Origin: Actinomycetota bacterium
GTDB lineage: Bacteria > Actinomycetota > Acidimicrobiia > Acidimicrobiales > Ilumatobacteraceae
NCBI GenBank assembly: GCA_005788205.1
Contig: SXYT01000064.1
Coordinates: 1-32,343 of the forward strand
Reading direction: 5' to 3'
Length of the DNA stretch: 32,343 bases
Below the pieces are notes generated by a model that was not told where the DNA came from, made no database searches, and saw only the letters and a list, made by a program, of their open reading frames with translations. Below, piece after piece: positions 943 to 32,343 of this stretch. The position numbers and the translations under genes were made by a program. Positions within the stretch are counted from its first letter, which is position 1. Each line of letters begins with the position of its first letter.

Positions 943-1356
943 ATGGCGCGCACAGACGCAAATCCGCCCATGCCCGAGTGGTCGACCGAGTACCAGCTGG
1001 TCGAGGTCGACCACGAGTACCTGAGCAAGGCGGTCAAGCCGAAGCAGTTCATCCACATTGACCAGAGCGAGTGCATCATGTGCGAGGGCTGCGTGGACAT
1101 CTGCCCGTGGAAGTGCATCCACATGGTCACCCCTGATGCGATCGCAGAGGCAACCGGCACCGAGCAGCCGGGCATGGATCCGTCCGACAACGTGATCTTT
1201 CTCATCGACGACGACGTCTGCACGCGCTGCGCGCTCTGCGTCGACCGTTGCCCGACGGGGGTCATCATCCTCGGCAAGGCCGGTGCGCCGGCACCCGAGG
1301 GAGACTCCCACACCCGTACCAACAACCACGGCTACGCCTACGGCATGCGCCTCTGA
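943..1356 (+). CDS. Ferredoxin, 2x[4Fe-4S]
   Basis: Motifs CIMCEGCVDICP and CTRCALCVDRCP; ATG at 943 in frame with ORF 721..1356, immediately after the previous stop. Confidence 0.9.
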   Translation: MARTDANPPMPEWSTEYQLVEVDHEYLSKAVKPKQFIHIDQSECIMCEGCVDICPWKCIHMVTPDAIAEATGTEQPGMDPSDNVIFLIDDDVCTRCALCVDRCPTGVIILGKAGAPAPEGDSHTRTNNHGYAYGMRL

Positions 1357-2903: not shown

Positions 2904-3752
2904 ATGAGTACCGCAGTAATCATCGCCATCGTCGCGATCGCAGCCGCCGTGCTGGGCGCCGTCGTCGTGGTGACGACGGCACGCCAGACCGACGTGCGCG
3001 GCGCCGGTGCGCTGTCGCGCGAGACTCGCAAGCGTGACCGCAAGGCGACGATCACGGATGGTGCCGTCACCGGCCGCGAGGTCGAGGCTGCCGCGAAGTC
3101 GACGGCCGTCATGGTCGCCGCACCAGCCGAGGTCGCACCGTTCGTGGCACCCGATGCCGAGGCAATCGGTGTCTCGCGGCGCATGTTCTTCAACCGTGCC
3201 GCCGTCGGGATGATGAGCGCGAGCCTCGGTGCCTTCGGTGCCGCCGTCATCGCGTTCCTCTGGAAGGGCGCCGAGGGCGGGTTCGGTTCCAAGATCGCAG
3301 CAGGCCGCGTGAGCGACATCCTCTCGACCATCCGTGCGAACGACGGGTTCCTCTACCTCGCCGAGGCGCGAGCGTGGGTCACCGAGTACCCCGAGAGCGC
3401 ACTCACGAAGGCGAAGGCCGTCTACGGCAACCAGTCCCAGGTGCTCTCCGGCATGGAAGCCGGTGTCGTCGCGCTGTACCAGAAGTGCCCGCACCTCGGG
3501 TGCCGCGTGCCGGAGTGCAAGAGCTCACAGTGGTTCGAGTGCCAGTGCCATGGCTCGCAGTACAACCGTGTCGGCGAGAAGAAGGGTGGTCCCGCGCCGC
3601 GCGGCATGGACCGCTTCGCCGTGTCGGTCACGAACGGCGTCCTCACGATCGACACCGGTTCGGTGTTCGCAGGGCCGCCGGCCGGCGTGAACACGACCGG
3701 CCAGGAGGCAGAGGGCCCGCACTGCGTGGGTGCCGGCGAGGGCGGTCACTGA
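2904..3752 (+). CDS. qcrA: Rieske [2Fe-2S] iron-sulfur protein
   Basis: CPHLGC and CQCHGS boxes; twin-arginine SRRMFFN before a TM; additional N-terminal TM. Confidence 0.92.
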   Translation: MSTAVIIAIVAIAAAVLGAVVVVTTARQTDVRGAGALSRETRKRDRKATITDGAVTGREVEAAAKSTAVMVAAPAEVAPFVAPDAEAIGVSRRMFFNRAAVGMMSASLGAFGAAVIAFLWKGAEGGFGSKIAAGRVSDILSTIRANDGFLYLAEARAWVTEYPESALTKAKAVYGNQSQVLSGMEAGVVALYQKCPHLGCRVPECKSSQWFECQCHGSQYNRVGEKKGGPAPRGMDRFAVSVTNGVLTIDTGSVFAGPPAGVNTTGQEAEGPHCVGAGEGGH

Positions 3753-3753
3753 G

Positions 3754-4818
3754 ATGGTCGCATCGACAAGCGCCTCCATCGCGTGGCTCATCCTCCTCGC
3801 GTCCCTCCTGGGTTGGATCATCTACGGAATCGCCAACGTCCGCGGCGGGCGCAAGGAGGTCGGCTCCGAGCAGAGCCTCGCCGCCAACCGCAAGCCCTAT
3901 TACGACGACGAGGAACTCGAGGGCAAGCGACTCGAGCGCACCCAGCTCCTCGGTCTCGTGTTCCTCGGCATCGTCACTGTCGCACTGCCGCTGTACTGGG
4001 TCATGGAGCCGAGCCGCCAGGAAGAGGCGGTGTTCGGCTTCGACAAGCGTTTCGTCAGCTGGGGCAGCAAGTTGTTCGCGGCGACTGCGGACGGTGGCTA
4101 CAACTGCGCCGGTTGCCACGGCGGCATGAAGGCCACCGGCGGCGTCGCCCCGTACGCGATCACCGACCCGAAGACGAGCGAGGTGAAGGCGGTCTCGTGG
4201 AAGGCCCCCGCACTCAACACCGTGATGTACCGGTACAGCGCCGAAGAGGTGCGCTTCATCCTGAACTACGGCCGCCCGTTCTCGCCGATGTCGGCGTGGG
4301 GAACGATCGGCGGCGGCCCGCTGACCGACCAGGCTGTCACCACGCTCATCAACTACGTCGAGTCGATCCAGGTCCCGCAGGACAACTGCACGGACACACG
4401 CGGTGAGTTCAACCCCACCTGCGACACCGGCAAGCTCCCGAAGGACAAGAACGACGAGATCAAGGCAGAGGCCAAGCGCCTCGTCGACAACGGCACTTAC
4501 TCCAGCATGGGTGAGGCCTACTTCAACCTCGACCTCGGCGGCGGCGCGTACTCCTGCGCGCGGTGCCACACGAAGGGCTGGTCCTACGGCGACCCGCAGG
4601 TCACCGGTGGCGGGGCCTTCGGTCCCAACCTGACGGCGGGCTCCCCCGTGCGCCAGTTCCCGAGCGCTGACGACATGGTGGCGTTCCTGAAGGCCGGCTC
4701 GCAGATGGGCCAGCGCTACGGCGAGCAGGGCCAGGGCAGCGGCCGCATGCCCGGCTTCGGCCAGATTTACACGGACGAACAGATCCGCCAGATCGTCGAG
4801 TACGCGAGGAGTCTCTGA
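3754..4818 (+). CDS. Membrane-anchored diheme cytochrome c of the bc complex
   Basis: Two CXXCH motifs (CAGCH, CARCH), two N-terminal hydrophobic segments; ATG at 3754 follows Rieske stop (upstream GTG at 3730 overlaps Rieske). Confidence 0.9.
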   Translation: MVASTSASIAWLILLASLLGWIIYGIANVRGGRKEVGSEQSLAANRKPYYDDEELEGKRLERTQLLGLVFLGIVTVALPLYWVMEPSRQEEAVFGFDKRFVSWGSKLFAATADGGYNCAGCHGGMKATGGVAPYAITDPKTSEVKAVSWKAPALNTVMYRYSAEEVRFILNYGRPFSPMSAWGTIGGGPLTDQAVTTLINYVESIQVPQDNCTDTRGEFNPTCDTGKLPKDKNDEIKAEAKRLVDNGTYSSMGEAYFNLDLGGGAYSCARCHTKGWSYGDPQVTGGGAFGPNLTAGSPVRQFPSADDMVAFLKAGSQMGQRYGEQGQGSGRMPGFGQIYTDEQIRQIVEYARSL

Positions 4819-5624
4819 TGCTGTCCACTCTCCTCGCGATCGGATGGGAGCCCGAGATCCGTGGCTACATCGTTGTTCTCATCATGGTCGGCACGCTGAT
4901 CGGCGGCACCTATCTCATTCTCGGCACCAACCTCGGTGCGCGCCTCGGTTTCCTCGTGGCCGCATGTGGTCTCGCCGGCTGGATGATGTCCATGGCGATC
5001 ATCTGGGTCATCTACGGAATCGGGCTCCAGGGCCCGTTCCCGTCGTGGAAGCCCTCCGAGCCGGTTGCGCTCGTGCGTGATGCCGCCCAGCTCGACCTCA
5101 CCGAGATCGTGGAGGCATCGCCCGGGGTCAAGGACAAATCGCGCGTCGACTCCGCAGCTGCCGTCCAGACGCAGCTCGAGGCCGAGGGCTGGACACGCCT
5201 GGACGACTCGGACCCGCAGCGCGGCCAGGCAGTGGCCTCTGCAGACGAGATCATCCAGGTGGGGACCGAGGAGTTCAAGAGCGGCGAATACGTGCCCGTC
5301 GCGGTCTACGACAAAGGCGGGGAGAGGTGGCCGAAACTCGGTGACTCCATCGACTTCGTCGCGTTCAAGCACGAACCGCGCTACGCAATCGTCGAGGTGG
5401 CGGCCCTGCTGCCCCAGCGCTCGGAGCCGGGCCGTGCGCCCGCCCGTGCCGTCATCGATGACAGCCAGCCGCACCGCTACGTGGTGATGGTCCGTGATCT
5501 CGGTGCGCGCCGCCGCCCCGCGGCGTTAATCGGCATCGGCTCCGGGCTCATCTTCTTCCTCCTCGCATGGATGCTCCACCGTCGTGAGGCATACCTGCGA
5601 GAGAACCTCGCCCTGAAGGCGTAG
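4818..5624 (+). CDS. Unknown membrane protein, TM helices at both ends with soluble central domain; candidate bc-complex accessory subunit
   Basis: 268-aa ORF; 1-nt TGATG overlap with diheme cytochrome c gene; hydrophobic N- and C-terminal segments. Confidence 0.8.
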   Translation: MLSTLLAIGWEPEIRGYIVVLIMVGTLIGGTYLILGTNLGARLGFLVAACGLAGWMMSMAIIWVIYGIGLQGPFPSWKPSEPVALVRDAAQLDLTEIVEASPGVKDKSRVDSAAAVQTQLEAEGWTRLDDSDPQRGQAVASADEIIQVGTEEFKSGEYVPVAVYDKGGERWPKLGDSIDFVAFKHEPRYAIVEVAALLPQRSEPGRAPARAVIDDSQPHRYVVMVRDLGARRRPAALIGIGSGLIFFLLAWMLHRREAYLRENLALKA

Positions 5625-5632
5625 TCCGCGCG

Positions 5633-6106
5633 ATGGGCCAGTACCTCCCGATCATCGCACTGGTGGTGGTGGCTGTTCTTTTCGGTGTGCTCAGTTTCGT
5701 TGCGTCGGGCCTGCTCGCCCCGTACAGGCCGAACAGCGCGAAGGAGGCACCGTACGAATGCGGCATCGTGCCGTCCCGTGACAACCCCGAGCGATTCCCG
5801 GTCAGTTTCTACGTGATTGCGATGCTCTTCATCATGTTCGACATCGAGATCATCTTCGTCTACCCGTACGCGGTGTCGCGCGACGTGCTGGGCACGTACG
5901 GCTTCGCAGAGATGGCGGCGTTCAGCGCGGTCTTCTTCGTCGCATTCGTCTACATCGTCGCCAGGGGAGCTCTCGAGTGGGGGCCGCTGAGGCGTGCCGA
6001 CTCCGAGACGCCCGCGAACGACAGCCTGGTGGCGTCGACACAGGCACATGGCTCGTTCCGTGTGGTCGGTCTCGAGGGTCGCGAGAGGAACGGGGAGGCA
6101 GCCTGA
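5633..6106 (+). CDS. nuoA: NADH-quinone oxidoreductase subunit A
   Basis: YECGI motif, [27 protein letters not shown]; first gene of complete nuo order. Confidence 0.96.
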
Positions 6107-25614: not shown

Positions 25615-25700
25615 CTGCGGCACACAGGTGTGACATGGGCTGCGGGACACGTGCAGGACCGGCGTGGAGTTGGGGGCCGATGTTGGCCCCGTAGTAGTTT
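25615..25700 (+). promoter_or_regulatory. Candidate regulatory region of second nuo operon: direct repeat CTGCGG[C/G]ACAC, inverted repeat GGGGCC-GATGTT-GGCCCC, -10-like TAGTTT
   Basis: Repeat copies at 25615-25625 and 25640-25650; hairpin 25673-25690; TAGTTT 25695-25700 located 8 nt before ATG 25709. Confidence 0.35.
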
Positions 25701-25708
25701 TGCCTCCG

Positions 25709-26074
25709 ATGTCTCAGTTCCTGCGGTCATACCTCACCGTGATCTGGTTCGGGCTCGCTTCGATCCTGATTGCGGGTCTGCTGCTGGGCATCTCGGCCGT
25801 TCTGCGGCCGAACAAACCCTCCGAGGAGAAGTTGCTGACCTACGAGAGCGGCGTGGACCCGGTCGGCGAGGGCTGGTCCCAGAGCCAGATCCGCTACTAC
25901 GTCTATGCCCTCCTTTTCGTGATCTTCGATGTGGAGGCCGTTTTCATCTTCCCGTGGGCCACCCAACTGGAGCGGTACGCGGGTTTCGGTCTCATCGAGA
26001 TGGGTGTCTTCGTGGCGATCCTCGTTCTCGGTCTCGTGTACGCATGGCGCAAGCGCGTCCTGCGCTGGGCATAG
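25709..26074 (+). CDS. nuoA2: NADH-quinone oxidoreductase subunit A, second copy
   Basis: [45 protein letters not shown] 25709. Confidence 0.93.
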
Positions 26075-26084
26075 GCGGAACATC

Positions 26085-26639
26085 ATGGGTCTTGTCGACA
26101 GGGGGAGGCTCCCCAAGCCCCTCACCACGCTCTTCAACATGGGTCGGTCGTACTCCATGTGGGTCTACCAGTGGGGCCTGGCCTGCTGCGCCATCGAGAT
26201 GGGTGCCGCATTCGGCTCGCCACGCTATGACGTGATGCGCCTCGGTGTCATCCCGCTGCCGGCCAGCCCCCGACAGGCCGACCTCGTGGTCATCTCGGGC
26301 ACTGTCACCGACAAGATGGCGCCGGCCATCAAGCGCCTCTACGAGCAGATGCCCGAACCGAAGTATGTGATCTCCATGGGGTCGTGTGCCAACTGCGGCG
26401 GGCCCTACTGGGACAGCTACTCGGTCACCAAGGGTGTCGACCAGATCATCCCGGTCGACGTGTACGTGCCCGGCTGCCCGCCCCGGCCTGAGGCCCTCCT
26501 CGAGGGGATCGTGCTCCTGCAGCAGCGCATCAAGAACGAGGACATGGGGGCGCGCTGGCGCGGCGAGGGAACGGTGCCCATGAGCGCCGTGGACGGCGAG
26601 TCCGCGGAACGTGGGGGTGTTCCCGTTGTCGCCGGCTGA
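26085..26639 (+). CDS. nuoB2: NADH-quinone oxidoreductase subunit B, second copy
   Basis: [54 protein letters not shown]. Confidence 0.95.
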
Positions 26640-27273
26640 CACCACCGAGGCGCCCCGCGACGAGCGCCGTGAGACCGAACTCGGCGCCATCCTGGGGGCG
26701 CTCGGGGGCAATGTCGCCGACTCGCTCCTCAAGCCGAACGATGACATCTGGGTGCGTGTCACCACCGAGTCGTGGCGCTCCAGTATCGAGACGATCCGCT
26801 CGCTCGGGTACGCGTACTTCTGTTTCCTGTCTGCGATCGACTGGATGCCCTCGCCGTTCGGCAAAGGCGAGAACGATCCCACCCAGCCCGCCCCGGAACG
26901 GGACAACAGCATCGTCCAGGGCTACACCGGGGGTGCCACGCGCTTCCAGCTGCTCGTGCGGCTCGTGATGCCCGGTTCCACCAGCGGCGTGAACATCAAG
27001 TGCGACGTGCCCGATGACTCCATGACGGTGGAGTCGCTCGTGCCGGTCTTTGCCGGCGCAAACTGGCACGAGCGCGAGACATGGGAGATGTTCGGCATCA
27101 ACTTCGCCGGTCACCCTGATCTGCGCCACATGTACCTGCCCCAGGATTTCGAGGGCTTCCCCCTCCGCAAGGACTTCCCCCTGCTTGCCCGCATCGTGAA
27201 GCCCTGGCCGGGCATCGTCGATGTCGAGCCGCTGCCGGGGGACGAGAACGAGGAAGAGAGCGAGCAGTCATGA
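26611..27273 (+). CDS. nuoC2: NADH-quinone oxidoreductase subunit C, second copy
   Basis: [42 protein letters not shown]; start uncertain (GTG 26611/26617 or TTG 26626). Confidence 0.93.
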
Positions 27274-28442
27274 CTCTGATCGGCGACCGCCAGCAACTCT
27301 CCTACATCGCCGCGCAGGCCGCCGACGCCCGCGTGAATGTGGAGCTCGAGACCGAGGGCATGACACTCAACATCGGCCCGCAGCACCCCGCCACCCACGG
27401 CACACTGCGCATCATCGCCCGTCTCGACGGCGAGCAGGTCGTGTGGGCCGAGCCGTCCGCCGGGTACATGCACCGTGGCTACGAGAAGCTCACCGAGGTG
27501 CGCACCTTCCCGCAGGTGACTGCACTCGTCAACCGCATCGACTGGCTCGGCAGCTTCGCGAACGAGGTGCCGTTCATCCTCGCCGCGGAGAAGCTCATGG
27601 GTGTGGAGGCCACGCCGCGCGCCCAGCACATCCGGACGATACTGTTCGAGCTGTCGCGCATCGCGAACGTTTCGTTGTTCCTCGGTGATCTCGGGGTGCA
27701 GCTCGGCGCCGTCACGCCGGTCTTCTTCGCGTTCCGCGACCGCGAGTACGTGCTCAACCTGATCGAGGCCGCCACCGGCGGACGTTTCCACCCCAACTTC
27801 GACCGCATCGGCGGACTGAAGGACGACCTGCCGGCGGGCTTCATCGACGAGACGCGCTCGGTGATGAAGAAACTGCGCAACTTCTGCGACGAGATCGAGA
27901 ACCTGCTCTTCGGCAACGAGATCTTCCAGTCGCGCACCCGCGGCATCGGCGTGATCCCGAAGGAGGTCGCGCTCCAGTACGGCCTCAGCGGCGCGAACCT
28001 GCGCGCAAGCGGCGTGGATTGGGACCTGCGCCGTGACCAGAAGATCGCGATGGCGTGGGACAAGGCCGACTGGAAGGTCATCACCCACCCGGACGGTGAC
28101 TCGTTCGCACGCTGCTGGGTGCGCCTGCAGGAGGTCCGCGAGTCCACCCGAATCGTCGACCAACTGCTCGACACCATCCCGGGCGGTCCCGTCATGGTGA
28201 AGGTGCCGAAGATCATCAAGGTGCCCGAGGGCGAGGCGTGGGTGAGCACGGAGAATCCGCTCGGCGAGATGGGCTACTACGTGGTCTCCAAGAATGACCA
28301 GGGTCCGTTCCGGGTGAAGATCCGCAGCGCCTCCTTCAACAACATCTCGATCGTGCCGTGGCTGCTGAAGGGTGTCTACGTGCCCGACATCATCACGATC
28401 CTCGCCTCGCTCTACTTCATCCTCGGGGACATCGACCGTTGA
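27270..28442 (+). CDS. nuoD2: NADH-quinone oxidoreductase subunit D, second copy (quinone-site variant)
   Basis: TLNIGPQHPATHGTLRI, NRIDWLGSF, DLPAGFIDE, SFNNISIVPWLLKG. Confidence 0.94.
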   Translation: MTLIGDRQQLSYIAAQAADARVNVELETEGMTLNIGPQHPATHGTLRIIARLDGEQVVWAEPSAGYMHRGYEKLTEVRTFPQVTALVNRIDWLGSFANEVPFILAAEKLMGVEATPRAQHIRTILFELSRIANVSLFLGDLGVQLGAVTPVFFAFRDREYVLNLIEAATGGRFHPNFDRIGGLKDDLPAGFIDETRSVMKKLRNFCDEIENLLFGNEIFQSRTRGIGVIPKEVALQYGLSGANLRASGVDWDLRRDQKIAMAWDKADWKVITHPDGDSFARCWVRLQEVRESTRIVDQLLDTIPGGPVMVKVPKIIKVPEGEAWVSTENPLGEMGYYVVSKNDQGPFRVKIRSASFNNISIVPWLLKGVYVPDIITILASLYFILGDIDR

Positions 28443-29497
28443 TGCATGCCCTCCTTGCCTCTGACGTCCCGTACTGGGCCCAGTCGCTGCTCCGGGTACT
28501 CGGGGGACTGGTGGCGGTGCTGCTCCCCGCGGGCACCGTCGTCTACCTGTTCCTGTTCAAGATGATGTCCTTCATGCAGAGCCGCCTCGGTCCCATGGAG
28601 GCCGGTCCGTACGGTTCGCTGCAGCTCTTCGCTGAGGTCGGAAAGTGGCTGCAGAAAGAGGACATCCACCCCGCCCGTGCCGACAAGTTTCTCTTCAAGA
28701 TCGCGCCGCTCGTCGTTCTCGCCAGCACGTTCCTGCTCGTCGTCGTCGTTCCCTTCGGCCCGGACGCATGGTTCACGAACTTCGAGGCCGGCATCTTCTA
28801 CGCGCTCGCGGTGTCATCGGTGTCCGTGCTCGGCATCCTCATCGCCGGCTGGGCCAGCGCCAACAAGTACTCCCTGCTCGGCGGCCTGCGTGCGGCCGGC
28901 CAGTTGGTCGCCTACGAACTGCCCATGGTCCTCGCTGTCATCGGCGTGGTCATCCAGGCCGGCACCATGAACCTCCAGGAAATCGTGGTCGCCCAGAACG
29001 CGGGCTCGATGTTCGGTTGGGACGGACTCGGCAACCCCTACCTCCTCACGCAATTCGTCGGTTTCGCGGTGTTCATGATTGCGGTGCAGGCAGAACTCAC
29101 CCAGACCCCGTTCGACATGCCGATCGCGGAGTCCGAGCTGGTCTCGGGCTACATGACCGAGTACTCGGGTTTCCGCTTCCTCATCTTCTTCATCGCCGAG
29201 TTCGCCACCGCCGGCGTCTTCTCGATGATCGCCGCCGTCCTCTTCCTCGGCGGGTGGGGCGTGCCGTTCAGCTGGTTCGGATGGACGTCACTCGGTGACA
29301 TCGACAACTGGATGAACATCGTCGGCCCGCTCATCCTCTTCACGAAGATGATCGTGCTCACCTTCCTCATCATGTGGGTCCGTTTCTCGTACCCGCGTTT
29401 CCGCGAGGACCAACTGCAGGGCTTCGCCTGGAAGGTCCTGATCCCTGTCTCTCTCGTCAACATCATGGTGACGGCGATCCTGAAGGTGGCGTTCTGA
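28442..29497 (+). CDS. nuoH2: NADH-quinone oxidoreductase subunit H, second copy
   Basis: [53 protein letters not shown] 28442 by TGATG overlap. Confidence 0.94.
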
Positions 29498-29994
29498 TGG
29501 CCAAGCCCAAGGTCCCCGGTCTGCTGAAGGGGCTCGGAGTCACCTTTGGCACCCTCATGCGCACCGTCACGGAGGGCGCCGCGACGGTGCAGTACCCGCA
29601 CGAGAAGGAGACGCCGCCGATCCGTGCCCGCGGGGTCATCGCCCTGCACGAGGGCAACTGCACCTCCTGCATGCTGTGCGTCCGTTCCTGCCCGGACTGG
29701 TGCATCTACATCGAGGGTCACAAGGAACTCGCCCCACCGCGCCGCGCGGGCGGTGCGCCGCGCAAGGTCAACAAGCTCGACCGTTTCGACATCGACTACG
29801 CGCTCTGCATGTACTGCGGCATCTGTGTGGAGGTGTGCCCGTTCGATGCGCTGTTCTGGAGCCCCGAGTACGAGTACTCCGAGCCCCGTATCTCGGACCT
29901 CCTCCACGACAAGTCGAAGCTCGGCGAGTGGATGGAGACCGTCCCGGAGGCCCCCGAGCTCGAGGCGGGCGCCGAGAAGAAGGGCAAGAAGTGA
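29497..29994 (+). CDS. nuoI2: NADH-quinone oxidoreductase subunit I, second copy
   Basis: [15 protein letters not shown] and [18 protein letters not shown] 29497 by TGATG overlap. Confidence 0.94.
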
Positions 29995-30506
29995 TGCTGG
30001 CCGCAGACCTTCTGGTCGCCCAGAACGTGGGTTTCTACCTGATCGCCGGCGTAATGGTCGTCGGCGCCCTGCGCGTGGTCACCTCCAACAACGTGGTGCA
30101 CGCGGCACTGTGGCTGGTGGTCGTGCTCGCCGGAGCCGCCGCCCAGTACGTGCTCCTCGCCGCTGAGTTCGTGGCCATCACCCAGGTGCTCGTCTACATC
30201 GGCGCCGTGATGGTCCTGTTCCTGTTCGGCACCATGCTCACCCGTGCGCGCATCGGCGCCGAGAAGGACCTCAACAACAAGAACTGGGTTCTCGGTGTCC
30301 CTGTTGCCGTGTTGATGCTCGCCACCATGGTGATCGCCCTCAACGACGGTTTCGGCAACGAGCAACTGCCCCTTGATGCGCCCCCCATCAACACCGAGAC
30401 CATCTCCGACCAGATCTTCGGCCCCTACCTGCTGCCCTTCTGGGCACTCTCGTTCGTGCTCCTCGCCGCTGTCATCGGCGCGATAGTGCTGGCCAGGAAG
30501 GACTGA
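29994..30506 (+). CDS. nuoJ2: NADH-quinone oxidoreductase subunit J, second copy
   Basis: SNNVVHAALWLVVVLAGAAAQYVLLAAEFVAITQVLVYIGAVMVLFLFGTML. Confidence 0.93.
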   Translation: MLAADLLVAQNVGFYLIAGVMVVGALRVVTSNNVVHAALWLVVVLAGAAAQYVLLAAEFVAITQVLVYIGAVMVLFLFGTMLTRARIGAEKDLNNKNWVLGVPVAVLMLATMVIALNDGFGNEQLPLDAPPINTETISDQIFGPYLLPFWALSFVLLAAVIGAIVLARKD

Positions 30507-30508
30507 CC

Positions 30509-30808
30509 GTGCTGCTGAACCAGTTCCTCATCCTCGGTGCCGTGCTGTTCTCCATCGGCGTGTACGGCGTCATCGCCCGTCGCAACGCGGTGCTCGTGCT
30601 CATGTCGATCGAGCTCATCCTGAACTCGGTGAACATCAACCTCCTCGCGTTCTCGCTGCGCAGCGGCACCGCTGACGGTCACACGTTCGCTCTCTATGTC
30701 ATTGCGGTCGCTGCCGCCGAGGTCGGCGTGGGGCTGGCAATGGTCCTGCTCATGTACCGCAACCGTCGGTCCATCGGCCTCGACGAACTCGCAGAGATGA
30801 AGGGCTGA
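30509..30808 (+). CDS. nuoK2: NADH-quinone oxidoreductase subunit K, second copy
   Basis: MSIELILNSVNINLLAF; GTG start 2 nt after nuoJ2 stop. Confidence 0.93.
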   Translation: MLLNQFLILGAVLFSIGVYGVIARRNAVLVLMSIELILNSVNINLLAFSLRSGTADGHTFALYVIAVAAAEVGVGLAMVLLMYRNRRSIGLDELAEMKG

Positions 30809-30812
30809 CCCC

Positions 30813-32343
30813 ATGTTCGGCGCCTCCACCGAAGCCACGTCCGCAGTGCTGACCTCCGGGTTCTTCCTGGAGAACGCCTGGTTGATCCCGGTCATCCCGG
30901 CCGTCGCCTTCGCGCTCATCATTTTCTTCGGCAAGAAGATGCCGATGAAGGGCAGCGAGATCGGCATCCTCTCCATGGTCGCCTCGCTCGTGTTCTCGGG
31001 CGGCGCCATCCTGCAGTGGATCAACCGCGTGAACGGCGCCGGTGAGGACCAGTACGTGGCCCCTGTCATCAGGACCTGGACCTGGTGGCAGAGCGGCGGA
31101 ATGGAATTCGGTCTGGGCCAGCACGTCGACGGCCTCACCCTCGCCGTGCTCGGTGTCGTTGCATTCATCTCCACGCTCGTGCAGATCTACTCGGTGGAGT
31201 ACCTGCGCGGCGACCGCCGCTACACCCACTTCTTCGCCTCGCTCACGCTGTTCTCTGCGGGCATGATGAACATGGTCGTCGCCGAGAACATGATCCAGCT
31301 GATCCTCGGCTGGGAGATCATGGGCCTCTGCTCCTTCTTGCTCATCGGCCACTGGTGGGAGGAGGGTGCGAACAGCCGTGCCGCGCTCAAGGCGTTCTTC
31401 ACCACCCGGACCGGTGACGTCGGCCTGCTCGCCGGCACCTCGATCCTCTTCTTCGCCGCCAACGACTGGACCCAGAAGACCCTCGGCGTCAGCGGTTTCT
31501 CCATCCGCGGTCTCTCGGCATGGGCACTCTCGGGCGACCCGAGCCACGCTGCGATCCTGTGGGGTGCGGTCGCGCTCTTCGTCGCTGCCATCGGCAAGTC
31601 GGGTCAGTTCCCGCTGCACACCTGGCTGCCCGACGCAATGGCGGGCCCGACCCCGGTGTCGTCGCTGCTGCATTCCTCCACCATGGTGGTGGCCGGCGTG
31701 TTCCTGGTCGCCCGCCTGTACCCCGTCTTCTTCGAGGGCCTCGACATCCTCGGCGGCAGCTCCAACTTCATCGTCATCATCGGCGGAATCACCATCGTGA
31801 TCGCGGCCGCTCTTGCGTTCGTCCAGACCGACATCAAGAAGGTGCTCGCGTACTCCACGGTCAGCCAGCTGGGCTACATGATGATGGGCCTCGGCGCCGG
31901 TGCGTGGCTCCCTGCGGTCTTCCACATCTTCACCCATGCGTTCTTCAAGGCGTGCTTGTTCCTCGGCGCCGGTTCGATCAGCCACAGCGCGTCGCACCAC
32001 TCCTTCGAGATGAAGAAGGACATGGGTGGCCTGCGCAAGTTCATGCCGGTCACCTTCGGCACGTGGATCATCAGCACGCTCGCCCTGTGCGGGGTCTTCC
32101 CGTTCTCGGGTTTTTTCTCGAAGGACGAGATCATCGACAACGTGGGCCACAACGGGTACACGCTGTTCATGTGGGTCGGTCTCGCCGGCGCCTTCCTCAC
32201 GGCCGCGTACATGACCCGTGCGACCTACCTCACGTTCTTCGGTGAGCCCCGCGGCGCCGCGGCGGGCGAGCACCATGACGAGCACGGTGATGCACACGGC
32301 GACGACGCGCACGCGGTCCACGGCGATGACCACGCCCATGACG
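30813..32343 (+). CDS. nuoL2: NADH-quinone oxidoreductase subunit L, second copy (3' truncated by window end)
   Basis: Open frame from ATG 30813 to the window end (not in ORF track); GWEIMGLCSFLLIGHWW, GKSGQFPLHTWLPDAMAGPTPVSSLLHSSTMVVAG, DIKKVLAYSTVSQLGYM. Confidence 0.94.
   Translation, partial: MFGASTEATSAVLTSGFFLENAWLIPVIPAVAFALIIFFGKKMPMKGSEIGILSMVASLVFSGGAILQWINRVNGAGEDQYVAPVIRTWTWWQSGGMEFGLGQHVDGLTLAVLGVVAFISTLVQIYSVEYLRGDRRYTHFFASLTLFSAGMMNMVVAENMIQLILGWEIMGLCSFLLIGHWWEEGANSRAALKAFFTTRTGDVGLLAGTSILFFAANDWTQKTLGVSGFSIRGLSAWALSGDPSHAAILWGAVALFVAAIGKSGQFPLHTWLPDAMAGPTPVSSLLHSSTMVVAGVFLVARLYPVFFEGLDILGGSSNFIVIIGGITIVIAAALAFVQTDIKKVLAYSTVSQLGYMMMGLGAGAWLPAVFHIFTHAFFKACLFLGAGSISHSASHHSFEMKKDMGGLRKFMPVTFGTWIISTLALCGVFPFSGFFSKDEIIDNVGHNGYTLFMWVGLAGAFLTAAYMTRATYLTFFGEPRGAAAGEHHDEHGDAHGDDAHAVHGDDHAHD

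Follow-up and report, generated by a model that had tools for sequence, protein, structure and literature searches.

A two-cluster ferredoxin gene lies within the operon of a b6f-like menaquinol:cytochrome c reductase across much of the Actinomycetota

A long-standing debate on cyclic photosynthesis concerns electron transfer from ferredoxin into bc/b6f complexes at heme ci. The ferredoxin of the b6f system is a plant-type soluble 2Fe-2S carrier that is encoded elsewhere. Bacillus-type menaquinol:cytochrome c reductases (qcrABC) combine b6 with subunit IV, the cysteine for heme ci and a Glu in subunit IV, as does the complex described here; to our knowledge, they have neither a ferredoxin nor an N-terminal extension of cytochrome b. 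In b6f cyclic flow, delivery of electrons from ferredoxin/FNR to heme cn has been proposed (PMC9342900). In anammox bacteria, Rieske/cytochrome b complexes with an NAD(P) oxidoreductase are known (Kuste4569-4574 and Kustd1480-1485; PMC12954380), and these complexes have been proposed to make NAD(P)H (PMC12954380). The published ext cluster of Geobacter (ExtO/ExtP/ExtQ) contains multiheme cytochromes, and a ferredoxin is not listed in it (PMC5877670). No description of a ferredoxin-cytochrome b cassette like the one reported here was found in the open-access papers searched.

The window analyzed here, a stretch of 32,343 nucleotides, carries such a cassette in a tightly packed operon. The genes follow one another in the order given below, together with the codons of two residues that bear on heme ci.

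462 to 941, + strand: small membrane protein of 159 aa that has three hydrophobic stretches and heads the conserved cassette
943 to 1356, + strand: 2[4Fe-4S] ferredoxin, 137 aa, soluble
1368 to 2150, + strand: cytochrome b6-like subunit, 260 aa (Pfam Cytochrome_B, 1e-46), extended at its N terminus by about 45 residues that lie on the cytoplasmic side
1602 to 1604, + strand: codon of cytochrome b Cys79, which aligns with b6 Cys35, the residue that holds heme ci covalently
2166 to 2864, + strand: PetD-like subunit IV, with a long extension at the N terminus (Pfam Cytochrom_B_C)
2475 to 2477, + strand: codon of subunit IV Glu104 (WPHLLAVE), at the position of PetD Phe40, the heme-ci ligand position
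2904 to 3752, + strand: Rieske [2Fe-2S] subunit with a CHGSxY motif (Pfam Rieske)
3754 to 4818, + strand: membrane-anchored diheme cytochrome c with the heme motifs CAGCH and CARCH (Pfam Cytochrom_C, Cytochrome_CBB3)
4818 to 5624, + strand: 268-aa membrane protein without assigned function, closing the bc operon ahead of nuoA (5633)

The complex is of the split cytochrome b type: b6 and subunit IV are encoded by two genes, and the genes for the Rieske protein and cytochrome c are found next to them. Its subunit IV is the single Cytochrom_B_C match in the 82%-complete assembly of the window genome. An FAD/NAD(P) oxidoreductase subunit is absent from the operon, which has the ferredoxin only. 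The split cytochrome b and the heme-ci cysteine are shared with b6f, for which ferredoxin has likewise been proposed as an N-side donor (PMC9342900); however, the ferredoxin in the window differs from that of b6f in being a 2[4Fe-4S] protein encoded inside the operon of a respiratory complex. Compared with the Geobacter families, the cytochrome b scores above the cut-off for ExtP (NCBIfam NF040969; 309 vs 290 bits), and subunit IV scores under that for ExtQ (60.6 vs 150). The 268-aa membrane protein has no Pfam match, and a similar protein is encoded at the same place in many loci.

The original prediction of a 137-aa protein with two CxxCxxCxxxCP motifs, encoded 11 nt before cytochrome b, proved accurate. 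Translation of the open reading frame gives a soluble protein with two complete motifs, C44-x2-C47-x2-C50-x3-C54-P and C93-x2-C96-x2-C99-x3-C103-P; the reading frame, stop codon included, runs to 1356 and the ATG of cytochrome b stands at 1368, and on the other side the gene for the small membrane protein ends at 941, 1 nt before the ferredoxin gene. A Pfam search matched the protein to Fer4 and the Fer4_7 dicluster (E ~1e-10), and the eight cluster cysteines are invariant in 74 sequences. Neither a hydrophobic stretch nor an export signal or signal peptide is visible in the ferredoxin sequence, and the protein is therefore cytoplasmic. A genome scan returned orthologues that are 77-92% identical across many genomes, the near relatives being named in the records as Ilumatobacteraceae and Acidimicrobiales, and dN was 0.06-0.14 vs a dS of 0.65 to saturated. 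This conservation, together with dN far under dS, marks the ferredoxin as a genuine gene on which strong purifying selection acts. Modelled alone, the protein reached moderate per-residue confidence (pLDDT 62) and its fold matches were generic; the best sequence matches and the weak fold matches were 2[4Fe-4S] subunits of the NuoI / FwdF / PsaC type. An identity as NuoI was considered and rejected, as the protein scores 40 bits vs a curated NuoI cut-off of 113 and lies apart from NuoI in a tree. A ninth cysteine, Cys58 (codon 1114-1116), adjoins the first cluster in a CPWxC arrangement; it is kept in 90% or more of the 74 sequences, is replaced by Thr in L034, and resembles a Cys in the NuoI proteins encoded in the window.

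The whole-genome contig scan returned near relatives only, and the wider survey covered the Actinomycetota, using 247 genomes drawn evenly over the phylum. A clear ferredoxin orthologue was present in 79 of these genomes. The orthologues represent 21 family groups, and 14 of these groups belong to classes other than that of the window. When 48 distinct sample loci were read (the 30 best-scoring and 18 weaker, more distant ones), the ferredoxin stood directly upstream of the same cytochrome b in 48/48; the same was true of 80/80 named Acidimicrobiia records, with gaps of 8-119 nt. Counted in reverse, 76 of the 82 sample genomes with this type of cytochrome b carry the ferredoxin. The association is thus far from sporadic, so that the outcome named in the original prediction as its refutation was not observed, and the place of the ferredoxin in the bc operon is conserved across the 21 family groups. 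In a plasmid collection, matches to the cytochrome b were distant only.

In the other six genomes with this cytochrome b, the ferredoxin was not found. One of these loci starts at a contig edge; in the remaining five (L069-L073), which were read, cytochrome b comes straight after the small membrane protein and the ferredoxin is missing. The ferredoxin-less loci fall in two separate regions of the cytochrome b tree, which indicates at least two independent losses, and because five genomes keep the complex without it, the ferredoxin is dispensable. After this clean loss, the loci retain the neighbouring membrane protein, the ci cysteine and the N-terminal extension, making them natural controls. 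The cytochrome b of the ferredoxin-less lineages displays scattered single changes only, none of them in the N-terminal extension, and hence no interface signal. Dispensability in at least two lineages speaks for a structural or regulatory subunit, whose clusters would stabilize the cytoplasmic face or sense redox state or oxygen and so tune the quinone site with no net electron flow; a precedent is PetP, a small N-side protein at the proposed ferredoxin site that tunes b6f (PMC9342900). However, such a role is quite unlikely, because the eight invariant cluster cysteines and the fusion of a related domain to a flavin oxidoreductase, described next, point to electron transfer.

A second cytochrome b (type 2; 51-57% identical) was found in twelve genomes, and eight of its loci (L061-L068) were read. 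In these loci, a gene for a protein of 600-700 aa occupies the place of the ferredoxin, directly upstream of cytochrome b. Two of the proteins were scanned; in both, Fer4_20 and Pyr_redox_2 are joined to a 2x[4Fe-4S] domain at the C terminus, so that a GltD-like FAD/NAD(P) oxidoreductase carries a two-cluster ferredoxin as its last part. For one of the fusion proteins, an alignment of this end with the ferredoxin of the window gave E 2e-15. In the cytochrome b tree, the ferredoxin complexes (type 1) and the fusion complexes (type 2) form sister clades (support 99/90 and 97/97), far from canonical actinobacterial cytochrome b. A tree of the cluster domains gives the same split as cytochrome b, with type 1 domains separated from type 2 and both from NuoI; because NuoI was the sole outgroup, the type 1 and type 2 domains are suggested, but not proven, to be closest relatives. 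This gene-fusion evidence argues that the two-cluster domain would connect cytoplasmic redox chemistry with cytochrome b.

The layout of type 2 resembles that of the NAD(P)-linked Rieske/cytochrome b complexes of anammox, and the window complex shares with the latter a b6-like cytochrome b, subunit IV, a Rieske protein and an extra cytoplasmic Fe-S redox module, as well as the Ser (and Tyr) of the Rieske motif. However, the anammox complexes have an FAD/NAD(P) subunit and a hexa- or octaheme cytochrome c, whereas the window complex has a two-cluster ferredoxin only and a diheme cytochrome c; with anammox compared by description, the type 2 loci are nearer to that layout than the window complex is. 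In one type 2 locus (L063:6711-9951), cytochrome b and subunit IV are fused in one chain.

When aligned with the cytochrome b6 of 1q90, the window cytochrome b covers b6 residues 30-215, and the four heme-b His are matched. The heme-ci cysteine is kept in the type 1 sequences displayed, ferredoxin-less members included, and is replaced by Arg, Trp or Tyr in type 2. At the position in subunit IV equivalent to Phe40, Glu was found in 116/116 type 1 loci and His in 8/8 type 2 loci. A Glu at this ligand position has been associated with a low-potential, Glu-ligated heme ci (PMC12954380). The earlier description of the subunit as a heme-ci-type cytochrome b is therefore well founded, given the match of Cys79 to b6 Cys35 and the Glu in subunit IV. 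At the level of sequence, these residues point to a low-potential heme ci with Glu as its ligand in type 1, and type 2 is read as having a heme ci that is lost or greatly changed. Since a ferredoxin-like domain is also paired with a cytochrome b that has no ci cysteine, as in type 2, heme ci may not be the sole contact. The N-terminal extension of cytochrome b, about 45 residues on the cytoplasmic side, is common to types 1 and 2 and is missing from canonical complexes; in type 1 it carries the motif FRPGSxFRxGYxDSPRNR...YHLHPVKVKRH. Because ferredoxin-less members also keep the extension, ferredoxin binding alone cannot explain it.

Taken together, these data suggest that the ferredoxin is, on balance, probably a dedicated 2[4Fe-4S] subunit or close carrier of a b6f-like menaquinol:cytochrome c reductase, likely serving as a low-potential electron input. 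The complex would consist of cytochrome b6, subunit IV, the Rieske protein, the diheme cytochrome c and the small membrane protein, and the ferredoxin would bind it on the cytoplasmic (N) face, near heme ci and the menaquinone-reducing site. Electrons would be exchanged between heme ci/bH and the clusters of the ferredoxin, and the usual direction would be inward, from low-potential cytoplasmic electrons through ferredoxin and ci/bH to menaquinone. The ordinary Q cycle would be retained, with the ferredoxin as an added cytoplasmic contact, and electrons taking the inward route would follow, in a prokaryote, a path like the one proposed from ferredoxin to quinone in b6f cyclic flow. In three complete, single-contig relatives (G031, G114 and G016), one bc-type cytochrome b was found and COX1 is present; with this sole bc-type cytochrome b and heme-copper oxidases, the complex must carry out ordinary menaquinol:cytochrome c reduction. 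A read-through chain of ferredoxin and cytochrome b, with the stop codon as a linker residue, was modelled from too few sequences and at low confidence, both per residue (pLDDT 46) and for the overall fold (pTM 0.29), and gave no support for a contact.

Inward flow is favoured; however, the preference is tempered because KorA, which stands for the 2-oxoacid:ferredoxin oxidoreductase and thus for an obvious candidate to reduce the ferredoxin, is missing in several near-complete ferredoxin-carrying genomes, because cytochrome b gave no interface signal and because the structure models, of the read-through chain and of the ferredoxin alone, add little. The main rival is outward flow, in which quinol would be bifurcated, with one electron leaving via the Rieske protein and cytochrome c and the other passing via bL, bH and ci to ferredoxin. 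The sister complexes, like those of anammox, carry an NAD(P) oxidoreductase, in their case with the homologous domain, which speaks for this direction (PMC12954380). Outward flow also needs a high Rieske potential, and every ferredoxin- or NAD-type complex that was read has CHGS in its Rieske motif, against CHGG in 5/5 canonical actinobacterial ones; the motif of the former ends in Tyr in most cases and otherwise in Phe (CHGSxY/F). Hauser et al. tie the Rieske Ser and Tyr to a high Rieske potential in the anammox complexes (PMC12954380), and a Rieske protein with CHGSxY/F may have an unusually high potential with menaquinone. It should be noted, however, that the Ser follows the clade, the ferredoxin-less L072 included, so that it is shared by descent, carries no independent signal and is suggestive only. 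Furthermore, the ci Cys and the Glu, and with them a menaquinone-reducing site, are retained in type 1, the cytochrome b of this type is the only one of bc type found in the complete relatives, and the step to the potential of ferredoxin is steep; outward flow is thus considered unlikely. Rather unlikely, too, is a scheme in which complex III has an interchangeable cytoplasmic port, where type 1 would bifurcate quinol to reduce its dedicated ferredoxin and type 2 to reduce NAD(P); if this were true, an aerobic heterotroph would make low-potential reductant at complex III. The Rieske proteins also have an extra Cys (VPxC) between their two cluster motifs (window 2904-3752; L033-L068).

The original prediction had further proposed that the ferredoxin, as a bound extra subunit or donor, may provide a link to an EFG-less complex I. 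Such a cluster is indeed in the window (nuoABCDHIJKL, 25664-32343, with nuoL2 cut by the contig end), about 20 kb downstream of the bc operon; however, the complex I cluster next to the bc operon, which starts at 5633 with nuoA, includes nuoE, F and G. Although nuo genes follow the bc operon in 61/61 Acidimicrobiia loci with room for them, few or none are near the ferredoxin-cytochrome b pair in other classes. On these grounds, a general link to complex I was rejected, and a specific one to NuoI2/NuoB2 of the EFG-less cluster is unsupported. A role as an extra subunit or electron donor on the cytoplasmic side gains from the gene fusion in the sister complexes. KorA co-occurs with the ferredoxin above expectation (65/79 genomes, phylogeny not controlled), and 2-oxoacid:ferredoxin oxidoreductase was rejected as an obligatory partner, since KorA is missing in the near-complete ferredoxin-carrying genomes G103, G124, G146 and G200. 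The constant nuo genes of Acidimicrobiia and the frequency of KorA would both be accounted for by a soluble ferredoxin that is merely co-transcribed with the bc genes and serves the EFG-less complex I or the oxidoreductase. This is very unlikely, because the adjacency to cytochrome b persists where nuo genes do not adjoin, KorA is absent from those near-complete genomes, and co-transcription by itself leaves the fusion protein of the sister clade unexplained.

A ferredoxin is thus genetically built into respiratory complex III across much of a phylum, including many deep-branching actinobacteria. This suggests an additional electrical contact at the cytoplasmic face of the complex, missing in textbook versions, and an unrecognized entry or exit point for cytoplasmic electrons in freshwater actinobacteria. 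The built-in ferredoxin, the NAD(P)-linked sister without heme-ci residues and the ferredoxin-less controls together make the debated transfer at heme ci directly testable by biochemistry.

The small membrane protein encoded at the head of the operon is probably an unrecognized subunit. It has no match in Pfam or NCBIfam; however, it is present upstream in 80/80 named loci, and a counterpart is encoded upstream in the type 1 loci inspected, ferredoxin-less loci included. It displays the pattern VVP...RDxV...QKR and stays with type 1 complexes even after loss of the ferredoxin, and in several type 2 loci the gene ahead of the fusion encodes a shorter membrane protein.
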